36,652 nucleotides of DNA from Syntrophaceae bacterium (lineage in GTDB: Bacteria; Desulfobacterota; Syntrophia; Syntrophales; UBA2185), in NCBI GenBank assembly GCA_003142295.1, contig PLLV01000112.1, positions 15,305 to 51,956 on the forward strand, read 5' to 3'. Each line of letters begins with the position of its first letter. Position 1 is the stretch's first letter. The notes beneath the pieces were generated by a model. That model was not told the DNA's origin, made no database searches, and saw only the letters and a program-made list of their open reading frames with translations. Shown in pieces: positions 1 through 27,927 of the stretch. Made by a program: the position numbers and the translations under genes.

Positions 1-650
1 TCATAGAGAAGGATCTGCCTGGGCGTATTGTTCAGATGGTCATCTCCCCTTATTACGTGGGTTATTTCCATCTGGGCATCGTCCACGACGACGGCAAAGT
101 TGTAAGTGGGGTAGCCGTCACTTCTTTCTATGACCAGATCATCGAGTTCCTCATTATTGAATGTAATCAGCCCCTTAATCAGGTCATTTACGACTGTCAC
201 GCCAGTCTCAGGGCATCGAAAGCGCACCACGGCATTCGCGGACCTGGGAAGGTTCTTATCCCGGCACGTGCCGTCATACTTTGGTTTTCTCCCTTCAGCG
301 AGCGCCCTCTTCCTCTTATCTTCCAGCTCCTCAGGAGTACATACGCAGCAATAGGCCTTCCCTTCATTCACAAGCCTATTTACCATTTCCCTATGAATAT
401 CTATACGTTGTGCCTGAAAAAACGGTCCTTCATCCCAGTGGAGCCCCAGCCACGTCAGGGCATCGAGAATTGCCTTTGTTGATTCCTCTGTCGAACGAAC
501 CTGATCGGTATCCTCAATCCGGAGAATAAATTTCCCGCCGCAGTGCCTAGCATAAAGCCAAGAAAAAAGAGCGGTTCTCGCCCCACCGATGTGCAAAAAG
601 CCTGTCGGAGATGGGGCAAAACGGGTTCTGACATTTTCCTTTTCAGTCAT
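1..650 (-). CDS. gltX: Glutamyl-tRNA synthetase, 5' part (runs off the left edge)
   Basis: Class I aminoacyl-tRNA synthetase that charges tRNA-Glu (or both tRNA-Glu and tRNA-Gln in bacteria using the transamidation route). About 216 N-terminal codons are present; family members are about 465-490 residues, so the KMSKS half and the anticodon-binding domain lie outside the window. The reverse strand from ATG 648-650 reads [17 protein letters not shown] followed by FLHIGGART, the HIGH-type nucleotide-binding signature, then an RIEDTD motif and downstream [11 protein letters not shown]. The frame stays open to base 1. There is no strong Shine-Dalgarno before the ATG. It is divergent from yceD and has its own promoter (685-713). 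Identification is firm; only the 3' end is unknown. Confidence 0.95.
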
Positions 651-684
651 TTTATTTTACCATGCCCACTGCTTTAATGACCTT

Positions 685-713
685 CTTATAGGGCTGCAAC
701 TTTCGCTTGTCAA
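685..713 (-). promoter_or_regulatory. Sigma70-type promoter of gltX
   Basis: On the minus strand a perfect -35 TTGACA (708-713) is followed after 17 bp by TATAAG (685-690). This places transcription start near 678, about 28 nt before the gltX ATG. Prediction from sequence only. Confidence 0.6.
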
Positions 714-734
714 GCCGGATTTCGAAGGGTAAAA

Positions 735-770
735 TTATACTTGACAATCAGGCCTTTTTATAATCTACTT
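735..770 (+). promoter_or_regulatory. Probable promoter of the yceD-rpmF operon
   Basis: TTGACA at 741-746 and TATAAT at 759-764 are both present but only 12 bp apart, so they cannot work as a standard pair. TATAAT with TTATAC (735-740) has 18 bp spacing; TTGACA could instead use a weak -10 near 764-770. The location is plausible, but the exact hexamers are uncertain. Confidence 0.35.
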
Positions 771-15259: not shown

Positions 15260-18200
15260 TCACCCCCTCTTCACGACATTAACCATGAAGGCCTTGCTCT
15301 CAGGTATCATGGTATTGGCATCACCAATCGTCGGTGTCAGCAGGTTGGCTGCATCACCATAAGTAAATACTTGTGGCTTCTTGTCCAGCTTTCCATACTT
15401 CTTTTTCGGTCTCGCCTGGGTGATCCAGCCAAAATGCCAGGGAATACCCACTTCATGAATAATGTTGCCATCGATATTGAAAGGTTTAAACCTCGGAGTG
15501 ACGATGGCCGTAGCCTCAACCTCGCCACGGGCAGATTTCACAATTACTTTCTCACCATTCTTAATGCCTCGTTCCTTGGCCAGTTCCACGCTCATCTCCA
15601 CGAACATGCCGGGCTGCATCTCCACGAGCCACGGGCACCATCTCGTCAGTACACCCGTCTGCCAGTGTTCGCTGACGCGGTACGTACTGCAAACGAAGGG
15701 GAAACGCGGGTCGCAGCCTGTAACACCGGAGTAAACATCCAGCTCGGAGCCGACTCCGGGTTTGTCAAAGCGGCGGATAGCTGGGTTGTGCTTCTGCGGA
15801 GAAAGGAGGTTCTTCTCCACGGGACACTCCAGAGGTTCATAATGCTCGGGGAAGGGACCGTCTACCAGACCCGGCCCATAGAGACTGGCCACGCCGTCAG
15901 GCTTCATGATGAAAGGTGGTCTTCCCGAACCGGGATCACCGACACCGTCAGGCACATCGCCAACCCACTTCTCTCCATTCCATGCGATAACGGGGCGTTT
16001 GGGATCCCAGGGTTTACCATTCAGATCCACGGAGGCGCCGTTATAAATTATCCTGCGATTGACAGGCCAGCTCCAGGCCCATTCGGGATACAGCCCAATA
16101 CCTGAGGGATCACTCTGCCCCCTGCGGGCGGCCATATTGCCTTTATCGGCATAGGAACCGCAGTAGATCCAGCTACCCGAAGAGGTAGAGCCGTCATCCT
16201 GGAGCCAGGCGAATGTGGGAACAGGCTCGCCCTTCTTGAACTCCTTGAAGTCGCCCTTCTTGGTGGGATTCTCGACCTTCTTGTCTGCAAGGAAGAAACC
16301 GTTGATCTCCTTGGCCACCATATGCGGGTCATAGTGGTAATGACCGTCGAGCGTCTTCTTGCCATAAGGCCAGGTAAGTTTCGTCAGGGCTTCCTTGTGC
16401 GGGCCGCCCTGTTTTTCGTAAAGTGCTTTGACCTTGAAATATAGCTCACTCATGATGTCGCCGTCGGGCTTGGCCACTCCTGGGGGTTCTACCGCCTTAT
16501 AGCGCCACTGCATCAACCGGCTGCTGTTGGCGAGGCTCCCTTCCTTCTCAATGGAAGAAGCGCATGGAAGCATGAAGACCTCTGTCTTAATCTTGGTCGG
16601 GTCCATACCCGGACCTCTCCAGAACGAGCCGGTCTCATTGTCAAAGAGATTGACATTCACCATCCAGTCCAGTTTCCCCAGGGCCTGTCTGACCTTATTC
16701 GCGTGGGCCCCGCTGCAGGCCGGGTTCATGCCCCAGGCAAAGAAGCCCGTAAACTTGCCCTTATACATCTGGTCGAAGAGTACGAGCCAGGAGTAATTAA
16801 CCCCATCATCAATCTTGGGCATCAAGGTATAGGCCTCTTCGAGGGTGGCATTTGTCCCGTACATCGACCTGAGGTAACTTGCTGAGTACTTCGGAAAATT
16901 TTTCCACCAGTTCAGGCTGTTCTTCTCCTTTGTAGTGGGCGTTCTTTTCTCGTTGAACTCCTTGAGAGTCTTCAAGGAAGCAGTGGGAGCCCCGATATAA
17001 CCCGGCCAGATGTGGAACAGCAGGCCGTGATCCGTGGAGCCCTGGACGTTGGACTCGCCCCGCATGGCTGCGACACCGCCGCCGGCGATACCCATATTGC
17101 CCAGAAGGAGCTGGATCAGGCACATGGTGCGGATTATCTGCGTTCCTACGGTATGCTGTGTCCAGCCCATGGCGTAAAGCTCAACACCGGCCTTGTCTGG
17201 CTTGCCCGTTGATGCATATTCTTTGTAGATTTCCAGAAGCTTCTCTTGAGGCGTCCCGCAGATCTTGGAAACGAGTTCAGGGGTATAACGGGAATAATGC
17301 TTTTTCAGAAGCTGTAACACGCAGTTGGGATCCTGAAGGCTCATATCCTTTTTGATTACCCCACCAGCGCCAGTCTGATAGGACCAGGTATCCTTGTTGT
17401 ACTTATTGCCTTCCAATCCTGAATATACGCCGTTATTGTCTCCTGGAAGTTTGAAGGCCGGATTAACCAGATAGGAGGCATTGGTGTAATTCTTCACATA
17501 TTCCGCGAAGTAAAGGTTGTTATCGATGATGTACTTGATCATACCGCCAAGAAAGGCGATATCAGTCCCCGATCGCAGGGGTGCATACACATGGGCCTTT
17601 GCCGAGGACTGGGTAAACCTCGGGTCCACACTGAGCACCCTTGCCCCTCTCTTGTCCATGGCCTCCTGTATCCACTTGAAGGAAACGGGGTGGTTGGAAG
17701 CAGGGTTGCTTCCCATGATCAGAATCACATCACTGTTCTTAAAATCAATCCAGTGGTTTGTCATTGCGCCGCGTCCGAACGACTCTGCCAGAGCCGGTAC
17801 AGTCGGGCTGTGTCAGATACGGGCCTGGTGTTCGATATAGACCAGACCCAACCCCCTCAAGAATTTCTGATATGTGTAACACTCTTCGAGATCCATGGCG
17901 GCGCTTCCTACAGAGGCGATACCTTCCGTCCGGTTTACGGTCTCGCCCTTGTCGTTCTTAAACTTGAAACTCGCGTCACGGCTCTTCTTGATATTTTCTG
18001 CAATCTTCTCCAGTGCCCATTCCAATTCCACTTCCTTCCATTCTGTGGCATTGGGCGCTCTGTAGAGAGGTTTCCCCAAACGGTTCTCGTTGACGGACAT
18101 CTGGTAGATGGATCCGCCCTTACTGCACAGAGAACCTTTGTTAATGGGGCTGTCGGGATCGCCTTCCGTGTTGATGACCTTACCCTCCCGTGTAGACACA

Positions 18201-18370
18201 ATGATGCTGCATCCGACGGAGCAGTAAGGACAGACCGTTGTGGTCTCTTTAGTATACTTGATCTTCAGTGGCTGGGCATGGGCGGATACGGGCTTCAGGC
18301 TTATACCGATTCCGCTCGTCGCCAGGACAGCGCCGGAGATCTTCAAGAAACCTCTTCTGCTAACATCCAT
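15260..18370 (-). CDS. fdhA: Formate dehydrogenase catalytic (alpha) subunit, selenocysteine-containing, Tat-exported
   Basis: One gene of 1037 codons read through an in-frame UGA at 17813-17815 (codon 186). The protein reads HQARI-U-HSPTVPALAESFGRGAMTNHW, the context in which FdnG/FdoG-type enzymes carry Sec (Sec shown as U; run split there). ATG 18368-18370 is chosen because it follows AAGGAG and opens with SRRGFLK, a twin-arginine signal, ending near AHA. Cys47, Cys50, Cys54 and a later CSKG hold the proximal [4Fe-4S]; then come molybdopterin-guanine-dinucleotide (Mo or W) binding domains. It oxidises formate, or reduces CO2, on the periplasmic side. Naive annotation would split it into two genes with the stop at 17813. 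No sel genes are in the window. Confidence 0.95.
17780..17815 (-). promoter_or_regulatory. Bacterial SECIS element with Sec UGA
   Basis: UGA is at 17813-17815 (minus). Starting 8 nt after it, CGACU (17800-17804) pairs with AGUCG (17780-17784), and an apical CC/GG stem encloses a GGCUCU loop at 17790-17795. The first loop G is 18 nt after UGA, similar in spacing and GG-containing loop to the E. coli fdhF SECIS as I recall it. SelB would bind here. Confidence 0.75.
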
Positions 18371-18584
18371 AAAAAGCTCCTTTCTGAGAATTACATTAGA
18401 AAATACTTTTCCGGTATATTTTCCTATTCTCCTTTCCAAACACGGGAGGCAGGACCGTTTCCAGTCATACCCATTGTCCGCCCTTCATGGAATAATCTTT
18501 AGAAGAAGCAGATCGGAGAAGCTTTCGCTCATAACAGGCAGGTCAGAATTTCTTGTATACACGTCCATGATTGTGTAATTGAGG

Positions 18585-19273: not shown

Positions 19274-19406
19274 AAATCCGCACCTGTCCTCTTAACGCTC
19301 CAAGCAATCAATAATAAGTCCCTGCGACTCGCTTCACTCGCTAAGGGTCAATTTGACTAAGTCCCTTTCTGCAACTCTGCCTTACAAGAGGCGAAGTCTC
19401 ATTGAA

Positions 19407-20201
19407 TCAGAATCTCAGCGCCATTCCTGCGAGATAAGTAATGTCTGCCTCGGCTTTGTTCAAGCCTCCCTTGACGCCGAAATCGACATCCATATTTTCT
19501 CTTATGGAATAGATAAACCCGCCTAATAAAAAAGCCGGATTAGTATCAGATGACTTGTCGGTATTTCGCTCCGCACCGATGTTGGCAACCAACTTCAACT
19601 TTTTCATAATTTTAAACTCGCCAGCCAGAGACGCGTGCCAGATGTCTTCCCTCTCATCTACCGTATTTTCATTCCTCTTATAGCCGAGGTTCAAGTGAAA
19701 CGCCCACGGATCCACGTCCTTTGTGGTAATTAAATACAGCGTACCCGTCGCCCTTCCTGTCCCAAGATCCTTATCCTTATCGCCCGCCGGGAGCGTTATC
19801 CCCGGTTTGATGGCAAGGCTCAAGCCGTCTTTTTCAAAGAAACGCCACTTGACTTCTACGGATATATCGGCAATGCCGCTTACATCAGATGCAGTCGCAT
19901 CGTTTACTTCCGTCCTCTTCCACTGGTAGGGAATAGTCAAGATGGCATCAACATTGTCAATAACTCCATAGGTGAGGACTGTCTTGATCTCCATTTCTCT
20001 GCTCTTTGCAGACGCATTGGCACCGGTGTCATCGGGCGAATTTGTCTTGTCGAAACTGGTTTGACCATTCAGCTCGAACAGAAATTTCCCTTCCCCCTGT
20101 GTGCCTGCATCGTCGGTAATGAGGGGATGCGCCGCATAACTCAGAGTCAAAAATGCATGGGTCACAATTATAAGACAAAATATCGCTCTTATGCTTTTCA
20201 T
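19407..20201 (-). CDS. Outer-membrane beta-barrel protein, putative transporter (MetA-pathway family)
   Basis: 264 residues. Signal peptide about 1-23 (cleavage near SYA-AHP). The mature start PLITDDAGTQGEGKFLFELNG is typical of the Phenol_MetA_deg / putative OM transporter family, and alternating amphipathic strands end in a terminal Phe (MALRF), the outer-membrane assembly signal. It is the last minus-strand gene after nikO (127-bp gap, no clear terminator), so it may be expressed with the nickel importer and act as its outer-membrane pore. That role is inferred from position only; the family name reflects history, not proven substrate. Confidence 0.7.
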   Translation of the reverse strand: MKSIRAIFCLIIVTHAFLTLSYAAHPLITDDAGTQGEGKFLFELNGQTSFDKTNSPDDTGANASAKSREMEIKTVLTYGVIDNVDAILTIPYQWKRTEVNDATASDVSGIADISVEVKWRFFEKDGLSLAIKPGITLPAGDKDKDLGTGRATGTLYLITTKDVDPWAFHLNLGYKRNENTVDEREDIWHASLAGEFKIMKKLKLVANIGAERNTDKSSDTNPAFLLGGFIYSIRENMDVDFGVKGGLNKAEADITYLAGMALRF

Positions 20202-20328: not shown

Positions 20329-21165
20329 TCAACTATCCACATCATCGGGCTTCCGGTCATGACGGTGAAACAGGTAATGAGAATGGATATGGATGTGGGC
20401 ATGATTCCCGTGGTAATGAACATGCTCGTGGATGAGATTGACTCTCAATAGCAGGTCCTCATCCTGTAATATCTCATCGGCAGTCCCGATTTTTTCAACG
20501 CGGTGATCTTCAGAAAGGACGGCAACACGGCACCTGAGTTCACTGATAAGAGACAAGTCGTGGGTAGCAATGACGAGGGTTTTTCCTGCGTCATTGAGGA
20601 GAATCATCAATTCTATCAGGAAGCTTTTTGTTCTCGGATCGAGACCGTTCATCGGCTCATCAAGCAGGAGAAGACGGGGGTTCATGGTAAGAATAGAACC
20701 GATGGCGACCCTCTTTTTTTCACCTCCCGATAACATGTAGGAGGGCCTCTCCTGCAGATGAGAGATCTCTAACATTGCCATAATCTCCCTAACCCGCCCG
20801 AAAGCCTCCTCCTGACAAAGACCCAGCTGCAGCGGACCAAAGAGGAGTTCATCGAAAACAGTCGGGCAGAAAAGGTGAACGTCAGAATCCTGAAAGACAT
20901 AACCCACGCTGCTCCTGAAATATTTCAGAAATGTCCTGTCTCGGAGCGAACCCTCGGAAACCTCTTTTCCCTGGAAATACACTCTGCCTGAGCGGGGATA
21001 AATCAGGCCGTTCATGATGTGCAGGAGCGTCGACTTACCACACCCGTTAGAACCGATAACCGCAAATATTTCACCTTCAGAAATACCCATGCTCACCCGG
21101 GATAAAGCGGGGATATTATCATGATAAGCATAGCTTACATCATCAATTTGGATAATATCTGCCAT
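20329..21165 (-). CDS. nikO: Nickel/cobalt ECF transporter ATPase
   Basis: 278 residues. ABC ATPase with Walker A GSNGCGKST (about 38-46), signature LSGGEKKRVAIG, Walker B LLLLDEPMNGLD and the switch histidine in IATHD. It energises the ECF complex with NikM/N/Q. The C-terminus has a metal-binding tail: 11 histidines within residues 246-269, alternating with other residues. Such His tails point to Ni/Co handling. Its start lies 7 bp after the nikQ stop. CbiO is the cobalt homologue; the nikR gene, NikR boxes and lar genes favour nickel. Confidence 0.9.
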   Translation of the reverse strand: MADIIQIDDVSYAYHDNIPALSRVSMGISEGEIFAVIGSNGCGKSTLLHIMNGLIYPRSGRVYFQGKEVSEGSLRDRTFLKYFRSSVGYVFQDSDVHLFCPTVFDELLFGPLQLGLCQEEAFGRVREIMAMLEISHLQERPSYMLSGGEKKRVAIGSILTMNPRLLLLDEPMNGLDPRTKSFLIELMILLNDAGKTLVIATHDLSLISELRCRVAVLSEDHRVEKIGTADEILQDEDLLLRVNLIHEHVHYHGNHAHIHIHSHYLFHRHDRKPDDVDS

Positions 21166-21172
21166 CTAATCC

Positions 21173-22024
21173 TCACATCCATAAAAGGAAAATCCCGGCA
21201 AGCAAAAAGAAGCAGCCGGAAAGCCGGTCCGTCGTAGTCAGCTCACCGATATCGGACAGCCTCACCTCTTCATCAAAGCCTCTCGCCACCATTGCTCTGA
21301 ATACTTCCTCATACCGGGACATGGACTTTCTGAACATATGAGCAATTCTCCCGGCGACCCAGATCCTCGCTTCGTCATCTCTTACCATTCCCACAAGCCT
21401 GCTTTTTCTGGCAAAGTACATGCTCTCTACTGTTTTTGCGAAAATAAAAATGTACTTGTACGAAAGAGTAATAACGAGCAGAAAGGCTTGAGGAACGCGG
21501 AAAACTTGCAGTGCCTTGATAATCCTGTGAAACGGCGTGGTATAGATTACTAAAAGAGAAATGGTAAGAGAGTTCATCATTCTCAGACAGAGCATCATCA
21601 CTCCATCAACACCCTGCCTTGTGAGGCCTATCTCTTCGGGGATATGGTAAATCAGGAATTCATAAGGATGTGACAAAGTGATAACAGGCAGAATCAATTC
21701 TCCCGGCGTTACCACATTAAAGGCGGACGGAAAGATAACCAGAAATCCAAAAATAAACGTCAAGCCGGCTATTTTTTTGTAGAATTGCGCGATGTTTATC
21801 CGTGATGAGACGACGAGGAGGAAAGTAAACAGGGTGATTACCGCCTCGGGGAATATATCCGTTTTCAGGCTGACAATGACAACAAAGAAGATGAGAAAAA
21901 TAACCTTCACCCTTGAATCAAGCTTCTGGAAAAAACCTTTCCCTGATTCCTGACCTACGTTTAAATACCCTGTCGTAATCATCTCCGACAGATGTCCTAT
22001 TCCCTTCTCGATATACGAAGACAT
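21173..22024 (-). CDS. nikQ: Nickel/cobalt ECF transporter transmembrane (T) component
   Basis: 283 residues from ATG 22022-22024, chosen because it follows GAAAGGG and opens with the homologous SYIEKGIGHLSEMI. A longer form from 22099, overlapping the end of nikN, is possible but its extra 25 residues look unrelated. Hydrophobic segments begin after FFQKLDSRVKVIF. The coupling motif region near ARIWVAGRIAHMFRKSMSR and AMVARGF has the Ala-Arg-Gly type signature of T components, which docks on NikO. It couples ATP hydrolysis to substrate movement by NikM. Confidence 0.85.
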   Translation of the reverse strand: MSSYIEKGIGHLSEMITTGYLNVGQESGKGFFQKLDSRVKVIFLIFFVVIVSLKTDIFPEAVITLFTFLLVVSSRINIAQFYKKIAGLTFIFGFLVIFPSAFNVVTPGELILPVITLSHPYEFLIYHIPEEIGLTRQGVDGVMMLCLRMMNSLTISLLVIYTTPFHRIIKALQVFRVPQAFLLVITLSYKYIFIFAKTVESMYFARKSRLVGMVRDDEARIWVAGRIAHMFRKSMSRYEEVFRAMVARGFDEEVRLSDIGELTTTDRLSGCFFLLAGIFLLWM

Positions 22025-22088
22025 TAGTGTAACCCTTTCGCCTGCATCATGTGCCTGCGCTGGTGTACACAGAAGAAAGCCCGGAATC

Positions 22089-22424
22089 TTATTTCTCATG
22101 TTTGAATAGCAGCCTCGATATTATTAATACTATGATCCAGGCAAGGACGATCCCAATGAAAGCGGACACAATATAGGAAACAATTCTTGTGGAGATTACC
22201 GAACCTTCTCCACCGAAGTTATAGTTCCGTATGGGGGCCGCCCAGATGTCCGCCGTTTTCTTTAAACCCCCGGGTATATAGCCCAGAAGTTTTTCGAGGG
22301 CGTCTACACCCCACTCACCCCAGGCTCCTTCAGCACCGAATTTTTCTGGCAGGATAATTCCCAGAGGAGACAAGACGGCCATCACGAAAAGCCACAGCCA
22401 CAGTTTTTTCTCAAGCCTCTTCAC
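22089..22424 (-). CDS. nikN: Nickel transport accessory protein, PDGLE domain (NikN-type)
   Basis: 111 residues with an N-terminal membrane helix (about 8-27), a periplasmic loop containing EKFGAEGAWGEWGVDALEKL, typical of the PDGLE domain, and a C-terminal helix (about 80-105). In ECF Ni/Co systems NikN/CbiN-like small proteins associate with the M component and are needed for transport. It overlaps the end of nikM by 14 bp, showing coupling. The gene symbol rests on position and domain. Confidence 0.75.
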   Translation of the reverse strand: MKRLEKKLWLWLFVMAVLSPLGIILPEKFGAEGAWGEWGVDALEKLLGYIPGGLKKTADIWAAPIRNYNFGGEGSVISTRIVSYIVSAFIGIVLAWIIVLIISRLLFKHEK

Positions 22425-23106
22425 GGGAAGCCTCTCTCATTGCATAAATGAGTGTTGACTCATTCTTCAGAAAATATTTCAAAAGCGCAACCGTCATTAC
22501 GCCCTCGACAATGCTGAAAAGGAACAGGTGTTCAATAGCCATAGCAGGAATAGCAATGGAGAGGGGATACGGTGCATACAGCGGCATACCGTCAGGACCG
22601 GAAGCAATGACAGGCTGAATGCCGAACATGAAAGCGGCACAGAAGGCGGCGGCAGCAAGTCCTACATAACCTGAAAGGAAAGCCGCCACGAGGATCCTTA
22701 CTCTATTCTGCGAGAATCCTTTGATCAAATTGAATGTCCAGTAGGCAATAAAAGGCATGACAATGGCCATATTAAAACAGTTGGCGCCTATGGCCGTGAT
22801 GCCGCCGTCACCGAAGACAAACGCCTGTATAATCAAGACCACGGAGACGGCAATGACCGCTGTCCAAGGGCCTAGGAGCAAGGCGATAATACCCGCACCG
22901 ACGGCATGCCCCGTCGTCCCTCCGGGAACAGGAATATTGAACATCTGAACGAGAAAGGAGAATGCGGCGGCCATGGCCAGGTAAGGAACATGTTTGGCGG
23001 AGAGCTCCTCCTTAATCTTTTTTAGGGCTATCCCCCAGACTGCTATTGACGCCCCATAAAGGGGAATATATGTTTGGGGACTGAGGTAACCGTCGGGAAT
23101 ATGCAT
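22411..23106 (-). CDS. nikM: Nickel-specific ECF substrate-binding membrane protein
   Basis: 231 residues from ATG 23104-23106. The open frame extends four codons upstream, but NikM/CbiM need an N-terminal Met-His that coordinates the metal, and the protein then begins MHIPDGYLSPQT exactly as required. About seven membrane helices follow, with the conserved NIPVPGGTTGHAVGAG loop supplying another metal-binding His. It binds Ni(II) (or Co(II)) outside the inner membrane. A NikR-like dyad (23128-23154) lies 22 bp upstream. Confidence 0.92.
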   Translation of the reverse strand: MHIPDGYLSPQTYIPLYGASIAVWGIALKKIKEELSAKHVPYLAMAAAFSFLVQMFNIPVPGGTTGHAVGAGIIALLLGPWTAVIAVSVVLIIQAFVFGDGGITAIGANCFNMAIVMPFIAYWTFNLIKGFSQNRVRILVAAFLSGYVGLAAAAFCAAFMFGIQPVIASGPDGMPLYAPYPLSIAIPAMAIEHLFLFSIVEGVMTVALLKYFLKNESTLIYAMREASREEA

Positions 23107-23127
23107 ACCAACCACCAAAGTTTGATT

Positions 23128-23154
23128 GTGCTATGAACCTATATTTCGTGCCAC
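23128..23154. promoter_or_regulatory. Putative NikR operator upstream of nikM
   Basis: GTGCTAT (23128-23134), 13 bp, GTGCCAC (23148-23154): the same 7-N13-7 layout, and the same left half, as the site before nikR. Half-sites match GTGTTAC / GTAACAC at 5 of 7 positions each. The site lies 22 bp before the nikM start; a weak -10-like TATAGG is inside it. Confidence 0.55.
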
Positions 23155-23183: not shown

Positions 23184-23596
23184 TTATACCTCTCTCCCGG
23201 AACTTGATATGGAGGGCGACCCGTTCCGTAGGCCTTTTATTGCTTTCGGCCTGTTCGTCAATTTCTGGATGTCTCGAGCGGCGCCCTTTACTGTTGTGAT
23301 CTCAAGACAGTTATGATGATCCAGATGGATATGCTGGGTAGAAATAATAATATCTTGAAAATCGAACCGTTTGTCCGTATCTTTGTCCAAAACCTCTTTG
23401 TTATGATCGTCATAGACGAGCGTCATGGCGCCTGCAACTCTCTGTCCTTCGTGCAACTGTTTTTGTATCAGCTCCTGCCTTATCAAATCCCGCAATGCTT
23501 CCGAGCGATTGGTATATTTTCTTTCCTGATGAGTGTGGCGAATTTATTGAGCAAAGCCTTCTCTAACGACACCCCGAATCTCACTAACTCTGACAT
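23184..23596 (-). pseudogene. nikR: Nickel-responsive regulator NikR, frameshifted
   Basis: NikR is a ribbon-helix-helix repressor of nickel uptake. ATG 23594-23596 opens with MSELVRFGVSLEKALLNKFATLIRK (split here: the first 10 residues form the DNA-binding strand), reaching ENIP; one base later the other frame continues RSEALRDLIRQEL to the stop at 23184. The span is 413 nt; adding the missing base near 23509-23510 gives 414 nt = 137 residues, the family norm. Cys95 and the two histidines of HIHLDHHNC (aligned to H87, H89) are kept, but the position aligned to His76 is Phe (RFDFQD). Either a fresh pseudogene or an assembly indel in an A run. The rest of the reading frame is intact. Confidence 0.85.
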
Positions 23597-23607
23597 CAAC
23601 TACGACC

Positions 23608-23634
23608 GTGCTATTTTTTTATTTTTTGTAACAC
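23608..23634. promoter_or_regulatory. Putative NikR operator at the nikR promoter
   Basis: GTGCTAT (23608-23614), 13 bp, GTAACAC (23628-23634). The right half is an exact match to the deltaproteobacterial NikR motif (GTGTTAC-N13/14-GTAACAC, as I recall it) and the left half matches 5 of 7. It overlaps the predicted -10 of nikR, so binding would block transcription. Confidence 0.65.
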
Positions 23635-23653
23635 AATTTGGCGTTTTTGTCAA
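23625..23653 (-). promoter_or_regulatory. Promoter of the nikR-nikMNQO operon
   Basis: On the minus strand TTGACA (23648-23653), 17 bp, TACAAA (23625-23630). The -10 is covered by the NikR-like operator. Confidence 0.55.
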
Positions 23654-23785
23654 GAGAAGAGTTTGACATAAAGCGAGGGCTTCAAAAAGGCTTCCTACTT
23701 GTCATGCCCGACCCCGACTGTAGCCTACGGGAAAAGGCCGTGGCGGGACCATGCATGATAATTTTGCAGACGTACGCTGGTATTG

Positions 23786-24394
23786 CTATTTCAGCTTCTC
23801 CAGTTCCTTTACGAGGTCTTCAAGCGGGGGTCTCTTGTTAATGTCGTGAACATCTATGTAACGTATGATACCTTTCTTATCGATCACAAACAACGCCCGT
23901 TCGGATACCCCGTCCGATCGCAAGACTCCGTAACTTGCCGCGACCTTGCCATGCGGCCAGAAATCAGAGAGCACAGGAAACCACAAATTCCCCATCTGGT
24001 TCGTCCAGGAAAACAAAGTGGGGATATTATCCACGGAGATGCCCAGCAACAAGGCATCATGCTTGTCAAATATGTCCTTCACGATATTATAGCCCGGCCA
24101 CTGGTCCGAGCAGACAGGCGTCCACGCTGCGGGGACAAAAGAGATGACAACATTCTTCTTACCCCGGTACTGTCTCAAAGAAACGGTCTCCCCCGATACT
24201 GCTTTCAGGGTAAAATCAGGTGCCCGATCTCCCACCTTGAGCTTCAAAACACTATCCGTAGGCTTGAGCAAGCCGGGGTTATAGATATTATTCTTAAACG
24301 CATCAGAGAGACCGAAGGCACTCTGAGCACACGGAAAAAGCAGAATAGCCATTCCTATCAGACCGAGAAGGATAAGCCGATTATTCGTTTTCAT
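23786..24394 (-). CDS. Exported 1-Cys peroxiredoxin (AhpC/TSA family)
   Basis: 202 residues. Signal peptide about 1-28 (hydrophobic LGLIGMAILLFP, then AQSAFG). The thioredoxin-fold core begins KVGDRAPDFTLKAVSGE; the peroxidatic site is VPAAWTPVCSDQ with Thr92 and Cys95. No second cysteine follows Cys95, so it should act as a 1-Cys enzyme needing an outside reductant. The neighbouring exported thioredoxin with CPYC is an obvious candidate partner. It lies 13 bp after that gene, so the two form an operon. Expected to remove peroxides in the periplasm. Confidence 0.85.
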   Translation of the reverse strand: MKTNNRLILLGLIGMAILLFPCAQSAFGLSDAFKNNIYNPGLLKPTDSVLKLKVGDRAPDFTLKAVSGETVSLRQYRGKKNVVISFVPAAWTPVCSDQWPGYNIVKDIFDKHDALLLGISVDNIPTLFSWTNQMGNLWFPVLSDFWPHGKVAASYGVLRSDGVSERALFVIDKKGIIRYIDVHDINKRPPLEDLVKELEKLK

Positions 24395-25169: not shown

Positions 25170-25988
25170 ATGACAGAGCTTTCATCAAAACTGGAATCAC
25201 TGGAAAAGATACTAAGTGATATGCAGAGCGTCCTTATTGCCTATTCCGGGGGCACGGACAGCACCTTCCTGCTGAAGATTGCCACAACCGTTTTGGGTGA
25301 CAAGGCCGTAGCCGTCACTGCAAGTTCGGAAACATACACACCACAAGAACTCCGGGAGGCCAAGAAGAACGCGGAAGTAATCGGCGCACAGCACATTATT
25401 GTGTATACAGATGAACTTAATGATCCGAATTTCTCATCCAATCCCCCGGAAAGATGCTACTACTGCAAGAAGGAGCTTTTCACGAAGCTTACGGGACTGT
25501 TAAATCGTCACGGTTTGAACTCTATCATAGATGGTTCAACGTGTGATGATGAGAGGGATTTCCGCCCGGGAATGAGAGCGGTTGCGGAGTTTGGCGTCAG
25601 GAGCCCGCTTAAGGAGGCAGGTTTCACAAAAGAAGACATCAGAAAACTATCGAAGGAGATGAATCTCCCTACGTGGGACAAGCCTCCGCTGCCCTGTCTA
25701 TCAACTAGGTTTCCATACGGCACTCAAATCACGAAAGAGAAGGTCTTGCGTGTCGGTCGTGCGGAAGAGTTCCTGGCAGGTTTTGGAATCCGGCAATTGA
25801 GGGTCAGAGACCACGGCAGCATTGCCAGAATAGAAGTGCTGCGCGCAGATATGCCCATATTTCTCGACGAGGAGATATCAAATCTGATTGTGGAAAAATT
25901 CAAGGCGCTGGGATATGCATATGTCGCTCTGGATATTCAGGGATACAGGATGGGCAGCATGAATGAACCATTGAAGGAAGAGGACTAA
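25170..25988 (+). CDS. larE: LarE, ATP-dependent sulfur insertase for nickel-pincer cofactor
   Basis: 272 residues. PP-loop AYSGGTDST (residues 24-32) binds ATP and adenylates the substrate carboxylate; LarE then inserts sulfur to give pyridinium-3,5-bisthiocarboxylate mononucleotide. Cys176 in PPLPCLSTRFPYG matches the sacrificial cysteine of Lactiplantibacillus LarE; a CYYC pair (Cys96, Cys99) is also present, the three-cysteine arrangement linked to [4Fe-4S]-dependent LarE, which would recycle rather than sacrifice a cysteine. First gene of larEBC; 2 bp before larB. Confidence 0.93.
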   Translation: MTELSSKLESLEKILSDMQSVLIAYSGGTDSTFLLKIATTVLGDKAVAVTASSETYTPQELREAKKNAEVIGAQHIIVYTDELNDPNFSSNPPERCYYCKKELFTKLTGLLNRHGLNSIIDGSTCDDERDFRPGMRAVAEFGVRSPLKEAGFTKEDIRKLSKEMNLPTWDKPPLPCLSTRFPYGTQITKEKVLRVGRAEEFLAGFGIRQLRVRDHGSIARIEVLRADMPIFLDEEISNLIVEKFKALGYAYVALDIQGYRMGSMNEPLKEED

Positions 25989-25990
25989 AG

Positions 25991-26749
25991 ATGGACAGAG
26001 AAAAAATCAGGAAACTCTTAGAAAACGTTAGAACCGGAAGAATGGGGATCGATGACGCACTGAGGGCTTTAAGGTCTTTTCCCTACCAGGATTTGGGCGA
26101 CGCCAAAATCGATACTCACAGGGACTTGCGGAGGGGTTTCCCGGAAGTGATATTGTGCCAGGGAAAAACTATCGAACAAATCAGGAGAATTGTAGAAAGC
26201 CTCTCACCGGAAACGAAATTTATCATGGCAACCAAAGCCGATAAGGCGGTATTTAAAACCATCAGGAAAGTTAGGAGGGACGCAGTCTATTACGAAACGG
26301 CCAAAATCGTCCTGGTTGGAAAAAAAAGAAAGAAGAAATCCACCAAAACAATCCTCGTGGTAACCGCCGGGACCTCCGATGTGCCGATTGCGGAGGAGGC
26401 GGCAGTTACGGCAGAAATCATGGGGAATGCCGTCGATAGGGTCTACGACATCGGTGTTGCCGGGGTGCACAGACTTTTCGACAGCAGGGAGAAGCTGTTC
26501 AATGCGAACGTCATAGTAGTGGTGGCCGGCATGGAAGGGGCACTGGCAAGCATAATTGGTGGACTTGTCGATAGTCCTGTGATTTCCGTCCCGACCAGTG
26601 TGGGCTACGGCGCCAGTTTCGAAGGCCTGGCCGCGTTGCTGTCCATGCTGAACTGTTGTTCACCAGGCTCGGTGACTGTGAACATTGATAACGGATTTGG
26701 GGCTGGATACTTTGCAAGTCTTATAAACCATATGGGTGAGGAAAAATGA
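25991..26749 (+). CDS. larB: LarB, nicotinate mononucleotide carboxylase/hydrolase
   Basis: 252 residues. It carboxylates nicotinic acid adenine dinucleotide at C5 and hydrolyses it, the first step to the nickel-pincer nucleotide. The C-terminal half is PurE-like (VVTAGTSDVPIAEEAAVTAE; AGMEGALASIIGGLVDSPVI; PTSVGYGASF). The NCCSPG motif (Cys223/224) contains the cysteine expected to bond the pyridine ring, followed by VNIDNGFGAG. The stop overlaps the larC ATG by 4 bp. Confidence 0.94.
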   Translation: MDREKIRKLLENVRTGRMGIDDALRALRSFPYQDLGDAKIDTHRDLRRGFPEVILCQGKTIEQIRRIVESLSPETKFIMATKADKAVFKTIRKVRRDAVYYETAKIVLVGKKRKKKSTKTILVVTAGTSDVPIAEEAAVTAEIMGNAVDRVYDIGVAGVHRLFDSREKLFNANVIVVVAGMEGALASIIGGLVDSPVISVPTSVGYGASFEGLAALLSMLNCCSPGSVTVNIDNGFGAGYFASLINHMGEEK

Positions 26750-27927
26750 GGATAGCCTATTTCGATTGTTTCACAGGCGTCAGCGGAGACATGATACTGG
26801 GAGCGCTGATTGACGCCGGAGCTGATTTACATAAGCTTGAATCAGAACTGGGAAAACTGAAGATTTCCGGATTCACCCTGAAGGCCGAAAAAACAACCAG
26901 GAGAGGGCTCTCAGGAACCAGGTTTTTTGTCGATGCAGACCACAGCCACGCTGAGAGGCATCTGACGGACATTGAGAAGATCATGGATAACAGTGGCCTG
27001 GCAGATGACATCAAGGCGAAGGCCAAATCAATCTTTCGCGACCTCGCTCATGTCGAAGCGAAGATCCACAACACCAATCCCGGAGACGTTCATTTTCATG
27101 AGATCGGCGGACTGGATTCCATTGTTGACGTTGTTGGGTCCCTCATAGTCATGAAGATGCTGGGCATCGAAACTATGTACGCCTCCAGGATTCCCGTGGG
27201 GACAGGATTCGTTGAATGCGACCATGGCGTCCTGCCTCTTCCCGCACCAGCCACCCTCGAGTTGCTTAAGGGCATACCCGTATATGCGAGCAGTATCGAT
27301 AAAGAGCTTGTCACACCGACGGGGATTGCAATTCTCAAACACGTGGTGCAAAGCTTCGGTACCATCCCGGAGATGAAAATTGAACGCATCGGCTACGGCG
27401 CCGGCAGCAGGGATTTGAAAATACCGAACCTGCTCAGGGTCTGGATAGGCGAGACCGAAGTAAAGCAGGAATACGAGCAAGACGAGGTCATCCTCATCGA
27501 AACTAATATCGACAACATGAATCCCGAGATTCTCGGCTACGCCTTGGAGAGACTCCAGGAAAGAGGCGCCCTCGACGTCTTCATGACGCCCATATTCATG
27601 AAGAAGAACAGGCCGGGGACGCTGCTTAGCATCTTGATTACACCGGATAAACTGGATGAGACCATTTCCATAATCTTCGCAGAAACCACTTCTTTGGGGA
27701 TCAGATTTCAGCGTCTGGAGAGGCGAAAACTCCCGAGAGAGCTGATCACTGTGGAGACGTCATTTGGACCAGTAAGGGTAAAGGTTAGCCATATAGACAC
27801 GGAGAAAAGGATTATATCCCCGGAATACGAAGACTGCCGAGAGATCGCCGTAAGAAAGGGGATTCCCCTGAGGAAGGTATACGAGGAAGCCCAGGCGGCT
27901 GCAGAAAGAATATCTGGCAAATCTTAG
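26746..27927 (+). CDS. larC: LarC, nickel insertion protein
   Basis: 393 residues, one continuous frame (in Lactiplantibacillus the gene is split by a programmed frameshift). CTP-dependent cyclometallase that inserts Ni into the pincer ligand. Hallmarks: MRIAYFDCFTGVSGDMILGAL at the start (family signature; FDCFTGVSGDM is the core), DVHFHEIGGLDSIVD, GVLPLPAPAT, TPTGIAIL, and ETNIDNMNPE / FMKKNRPGTLL in the C-terminal half. It completes larEBC; no larA (lactate racemase) or other pincer-using enzyme is in the window. Confidence 0.94.
   Translation: MRIAYFDCFTGVSGDMILGALIDAGADLHKLESELGKLKISGFTLKAEKTTRRGLSGTRFFVDADHSHAERHLTDIEKIMDNSGLADDIKAKAKSIFRDLAHVEAKIHNTNPGDVHFHEIGGLDSIVDVVGSLIVMKMLGIETMYASRIPVGTGFVECDHGVLPLPAPATLELLKGIPVYASSIDKELVTPTGIAILKHVVQSFGTIPEMKIERIGYGAGSRDLKIPNLLRVWIGETEVKQEYEQDEVILIETNIDNMNPEILGYALERLQERGALDVFMTPIFMKKNRPGTLLSILITPDKLDETISIIFAETTSLGIRFQRLERRKLPRELITVETSFGPVRVKVSHIDTEKRIISPEYEDCREIAVRKGIPLRKVYEEAQAAAERISGKS

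Follow-up and report, generated by a model that had tools for sequence, protein, structure and literature searches.

Introduction

NikR holds nickel through the ligands His76, His87, His89 and Cys95, and the site is planar and spans two subunits, with His76 from one completing the set of His87, His89 and Cys95 from its neighbour, as laid out in the accessible portion of PMC7055735. For delta-proteobacteria, the available part of PMC545781 gives the NikR operator consensus GTGTTAC-N13/14-GTAACAC. Our literature search found nothing on point for a NikR pseudogene accompanied by a paralogue, nor for NikR in Syntrophus.

Here we describe a locus in which such an operator precedes a broken nikR gene (type A) and the genes of a nickel transporter. 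From the data presented below, we consider it very probable that the local type A NikR is a pseudogene and that a second NikR (type B), encoded on contig C174 of the same genome, now fills its role in trans. The locus lies in a stretch of 36,652 nucleotides, which was analysed as a whole and is called the window hereafter. It corresponds to positions 15305-51956 of contig C222 in a metagenome-assembled genome of 3.28 Mb and 250 contigs, with an estimated completeness of 93.3% and an estimated contamination of 5.0%.

Sequences compared

Alignment, rate counts and tree are based on 103 distinct sequences drawn from 141 loci (61 genome loci and 80 contig loci). For pre-filtering, a frame had to exceed 40 residues, contain an HxH or FxH motif and match the window fragment at E 1e-8, which yielded 141 frames. 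Some of the constancy of His87 and His89 therefore stems from the filter itself; that of His76 does not. NikR matches without a locus, including relic copies that were read separately, stand outside the 103-row alignment. The contigs with the best NikR matches are mostly deltaproteobacterial, many of them labelled Syntrophaceae or Syntrophus and some Omnitrophota. Within the order, 92 of 155 genomes give a NikR match. The family comparison comprises the window genome and eight other genomes (G001-G008).

The window nikR is split over two frames

The window nikR occupies positions 23184-23596 on the minus strand. Its 413 bases (3n+2) are divided between two frames, and it groups as sister to the intact nikR that G007 has in syntenic position. 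The first frame (23483-23596, minus strand) starts with the ATG at 23596-23594 and encodes the NikR N-terminus over 37 codons, until a stop at 23485-23483. The second frame (23184-23495, minus strand), an open reading frame of 103 residues, carries the remainder of the ribbon-helix-helix part and the nickel-sensor domain. This frame scores 80.3 bits against Pfam NikR_C (cut-off 22), so that the sensor domain is present; the fragment reaches 92 bits against the NCBIfam NikR model, below the cut-off of 105. The ribbon-helix-helix domain and the sensor, which share one frame in a functional NikR, are separated here.

The original prediction had described the gene as broken by one frame change, which the length and the two frames of its N- and C-terminal parts confirm. 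The junction it gave, 23509-23510, is too far downstream by some ten bases or more. In the second frame, homology (KYTNRSEALRDL) can be followed from 23519 onwards, and when G007 is aligned the length difference comes to lie slightly upstream of this position, so the break falls within roughly 23520-23529. A disrupted frame together with an intact orthologue elsewhere, namely the G007 gene beside AhpC- and TlpA-like genes, is what a pseudogene is expected to display. The window nikR looks like a real relic.

Downstream on the minus strand follow the genes of an ECF metal transporter: the nikM/cbiM-type substrate component (22411-23106; the listed frame opens at 23118, and 23106 is the start of the MHIPDG reading), a nikN-like (PDGLE) component (22089-22424; Pfam score 26.6, just below the cut-off of 27), a nikQ/cbiQ-type component (21173-22099), and a nikO/cbiO-type ATPase with a His-rich C-terminus (20329-21165). 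The relic and nikMNQO may form one transcript. If so, the dead nikR could be retained for a time as a leader of that transcript, its early stop lowering transporter expression by polarity, and the lesion itself would then reset nickel uptake once control had passed to an unlinked NikR; we regard this as a long shot.

On the other side lies a gene for an AhpC/TSA-family peroxiredoxin-like protein (23786-24394, minus strand), which adjoins nikR in G007 and nikM in G001, G003, G004 and G008. The plus strand carries larE, larB and larC for synthesis of the nickel-pincer cofactor (25170-27927), and a LarA-like protein is encoded elsewhere in the genome; together these likely show one use of the nickel. 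Two further observations concern the wider window. A formate-dehydrogenase-like gene, identified by reading (15260-18439, minus strand), consists of two open frames joined by an in-frame TGA at 17815-17813 that probably encodes selenocysteine. A repeat of about 90 bases at 19307-19407 has further copies on contigs C125, C212 (two) and C216 of this genome, and also in G004 and G007.

A nickel ligand is lost

The position of His76 is taken by Phe in the window NikR and by His in all 102 other aligned sequences, and a HMMER alignment with the solved NikR 2bj1 places this Phe under the His of the QH pair of 2bj1. The claim that Phe replaces His76 is thus borne out on both counts. None of the 102 homologues has Phe here; a common occurrence in NikR would have spoken against decay. 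With His87, His89 and Cys95 retained, three of the four ligands of a functional NikR are left. The adjoining Gln75 position is Arg in the window and Gln in 101 of the 102 others.

Altered positions that are at least 96% constant also include Trp to Leu, Val to Leu and His to Asp, the last within the YDHH motif; Pro also replaces a Leu of 92% constancy. At the 90% level of constancy the window breaks 8 columns, against a mean of 1.26 for the others, two of which break 9 and 8. At the 95% and 98% levels it breaks 5 and 3, equalled by one other row in each case. At the 100% level it breaks 1, as do five further rows, and one row breaks 2. By this count the window sequence ranks high without standing alone; what it shares with no other row is the loss of the His76 ligand.

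Tree and rate of evolution

The tree was computed from 103 C-terminal fragments over 111 columns, with many forks left unresolved. It joins the window NikR to the intact NikR of G007, which belongs to another genus of the same family, with a support of 99/89, the tree output listing the window among the long rows of unsure placement. The end branch measures 0.72 for the window versus 0.13 for G007. The type B sequences of the genus form a separate clade (100/99) with G005, G008, the rows of family f19 and a Syntrophus row. The G007 nikR is open over 135 codons; a TGA inside the match to it is read as the gene's own stop, since the query fragment is slightly longer.

Relative rates were compared with seven hand-chosen outgroups. 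The window sequence shows 14-22 unique residue changes versus 4-6 in G007, that is 2 to 5 times as many (21 versus 4 with G006 as outgroup). Chi-square exceeds 3.84 for five of the seven outgroups, with 19-22 versus 4-6 changes; for the outgroups L073 and L075 the difference is not significant (14 versus 6, chi-square 3.2). At second codon positions, 11-13 changes in the window face 1-3 in G007. Both counts are as expected of a pseudogene under relaxed constraint. On the window branch, third codon positions have changed more than first or second positions, so selection acted on the gene for the greater part of its past.

The locus in related genomes

In G007, an intact nikR stands in the same place relative to the TlpA- and AhpC-like genes, and different genes lie behind it. 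We rejected the idea that nikMNQO follows the G007 nikR: a frame of 755 codons (by eye a TonB-type receptor) and an ATPase, of which two stretches are 34% identical to nikO, are found there instead. The syntenic part in G007 is thus limited to TlpA, AhpC, operator and nikR. In G006, nikR precedes a gene of outer-membrane type, and nikM is distant.

The nikM promoter is assembled in four of the eight other family genomes (G001, G003, G004 and G008), none of which carries nikR there. G001 has a 36-base fossil from the middle of nikR at the same place, and G003, G004 and G008 have no nikR between operator and nikM. The contig of G002 starts inside the operon, and G005 gives no DNA match over nikM. 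The nikR-less junctions of G003, G004 and G008 are similar, and could go back to one old loss with recombination or to several losses. Recombination is possible at the G003 junction, since 385 bases on a separate G003 contig match the window at only 78.7% and BLAST returned nothing for the G003 stretch from operator to AhpC. The reading of the gene as truly decayed, one of those offered by the original prediction, is supported by the accelerated branch, the G001 fossil and the absence in G003, G004 and G008.

A sequencing or assembly error in an intact but diverged NikR would be another account of the frameshift. Its appeal is that a single indel in a metagenome-assembled genome, and a frame change taken alone, could be such an error; the sensor domain is also mostly readable, and third codon positions carry the most changes. 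However, His76 was lost independently of the frame, along with the change of Gln75 to Arg and of His to Asp in YDHH, the protein has evolved at an accelerated pace, and genus mates keep at this place only the fossil (G001) or nothing (G003). Owing to these three lines of evidence, error is rejected as the whole explanation, and we rate it improbable.

For relics across the order, four of the weakest NikR matches were read by eye. G012 has an intact NikR and a second copy with internal stops (L178, 1495-1818), in which the His76 and His89 positions read as Arg and Tyr. In G015, only the C-terminal end of nikR is left (L181, 2501-2641), near nikM and behind the end of another gene. G035 holds a C-terminal remnant (L182, 2747-2932) about 250 bases from the contig end, and the nikR of G059 is heavily broken (L180, 2853-3155). 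To judge from these readings, nikR decay is not confined to the window genome.

Operator and promoter

In front of the relic, a NikR operator of the form GTGTTAC-N13-ATAGCAC lies at 23608-23634 on the minus strand. With 2 of 14 mismatches to the consensus it is the best site in the window, and only 1 of 2000 shuffles of 23597-23780 equals it, as would be expected of a genuine operator. It extends across the second hexamer of a promoter-like element for nikR/nikM (23625-23653, minus strand; TTGACA at 23653-23648, a spacer of 17, TACAAA at 23630-23625), which a generic promoter scan of the region did not list. The same layout, with the operator overlapping the promoter-like element, recurs in all six genomes compared; the pattern, written after the sequences had been seen, is TTGAC(A/G)-17-TAC in five of the six and TTGAGC-17-TAC in G008.

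The original prediction held that both operators remain. This stands for 23608-23634 and is doubtful for 23128-23154 just upstream of nikM, a weak site with 4 of 14 mismatches. Sixteen sites with 4 mismatches occur in the window, and 3.6% of 2000 shuffles of the nikM promoter contain a site with 4 or fewer; a second strong operator at nikM was hence rejected.

The distance from the operator to the nikM start region is 507 bases in the window, 138 in G001, and 76 in G004 and G008; in G003 it is similar to G004 by reading, the start word having escaped the script. Where nikR is gone, the promoter-operator thus stands directly before nikM. As judged from this arrangement, the element most likely controls the transporter, which would explain why it persists after nikR has gone. 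A degenerate operator motif is matched exactly at six sites in five of the nine family genomes, all at nikR or nikM loci. With one mismatch allowed there is no genome-wide enrichment (4 to 12 hits per strand in the backward control versus 1 to 4 forward). The control counts pool all hits regardless of mismatch number. It is the exact matches alone that carry information. The reversed G007 operator, with 1 mismatch, offers no evidence on nikM, since it precedes the TonB-type receptor frame. A NikR-type operator also precedes nikMNQO in G004 (contig C82, L161, 8642-8668), a genome rated 100% complete in which no NikR match was found. An operator of this type may therefore persist without NikR or serve another protein.

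A second, intact NikR

The original prediction had allowed for a second NikR elsewhere, and a Pfam NikR_C search of the genome located one: it returned two matches, the window copy (80 bits) and a gene on contig C174 (110 bits). The C174 gene is intact, encodes about 134 residues with all four ligands, and scores 175.8 bits against the NCBIfam NikR model (cut-off 105). The genus mates G001, G002 and G003 each have one NikR match, which is of type B. Over the aligned C-terminal part, type B gives pN 0.004 and pS 0.158 against G003, and pN 0.032 and pS 0.383 against G002, values that point to strong purifying selection. Types A and B have in common the N-terminal strand RFGVSLE, which we take to be the DNA-reading strand in NikR. 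Type B NikR is predicted to bind the operator at 23608-23634. The putative operator of type B itself, in C174, is weak (3 mismatches). Just upstream of type B nikR lies a short His-rich open frame (KHEHKHTHPGH...; C174, L142, about 610-760, minus strand), and a stretch of about 300 bases upstream of the gene occurs once in the genome and is absent from G001, G002 and G003.

These findings bear on the suggestion that the nickel genes are truly deregulated, with no working NikR acting on nikMNQO. The local repressor is broken, and G004 sets an example of transporter and operator in a genome in which no NikR was found. Nevertheless, the main operator of the window is still near the consensus and the genome encodes an intact NikR whose N-terminal strand is identical, which makes deregulation unlikely, about on a par with an assembly error.

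Less probable still is that C174 is a contaminating contig and that the organism has no working NikR. The contig has just 3793 bases, and in a genome estimated at 93.3% completeness and 5.0% contamination, the foreign origin of a 3.8-kb piece retains a small probability. However, an orthologue is present in all three genus mates, and C174 diverges from them about as the window contig does. Its two long pieces are 95.5 and 95.9% identical to G003, and its identity to G001 and G002 is 82-86%; for the window contig, identity to G003 is mostly 90-97%, with a single 385-base piece at 78.7%, and identity to G001 is 80-90%. C174 and C222 therefore look like parts of one genome, and C174 as a contaminant was rejected.

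That the window gene is a changed sensor for another metal or ligand, expressed via programmed frameshifting, is scarcely credible. A strong operator stands in front and three of four ligands are kept, but the sensor is out of frame with the DNA-binding part and one ligand is missing, which leaves the changed sensor of the original prediction unsupported. Loss of His76 is seen in 0 of 102 aligned homologues, and the gene is gone in relatives. Programmed frameshifting was rejected because by eye the frame overlap holds no classical slippery heptamer and no run of A or of T longer than 4.

Discussion

Replacement of the local type A NikR in trans by type B is best read as a genome caught part-way through losing its local nikR. 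An ancestral promoter with a NikR operator would have driven nikR at this spot, and in the lineage of the window nikR would have stood first, ahead of nikMNQO. With type B present, the local copy would be redundant, and this redundancy may have caused the decay of type A: the gene would have lost constraint, nickel ligand and reading frame, its removal still being under way, while relatives would have lost it fully or nearly so. Selection may have kept promoter and operator for nikMNQO, because both would control the nickel transporter.

Such a course of events would mean that a metal repressor can be swapped while the control site of its target stays and the linked regulator dies. It follows that a broken linked nikR alone does not imply deregulated nickel uptake. 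The family shows several stages, from the intact gene in G007 over the relic in the window and the fossil in G001 to absence in G003, G004 and G008, and G004 has an operator without a NikR found; hence, the order of events can be tested.

Comparison with known systems

The window gene resembles NikR (NCBIfam NF003381, Pfam PF08753; structures 2bj1 and 1q5v/2hza) in its sensor domain, in three of the four ligands and in an operator of delta-proteobacterial type. It differs in the distribution of its parts over two frames, in Phe at His76 and in a score of 92 bits against the cut-off of 105. The consensus operator and the NikMNQO-type transporter behind it are shared with delta-proteobacterial nikR-nikMNQO regulation as far as the accessible part of PMC545781 describes it; unlike in the systems covered there, the repressor gene beside the transporter is dead here, and a different contig carries the intact NikR. 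A further likeness exists to transcription-factor turnover, or non-orthologous replacement, in which one regulator assumes the role of another (PMC5343134, available in part). In contrast to the cases in that portion of the text, in which NikR does not appear, both regulators here are members of the NikR family, and an intermediate stage can still be seen in the form of the relic gene. The event is ordinary regulator turnover of a kind already known, and the stages in relatives make it a tidy example.
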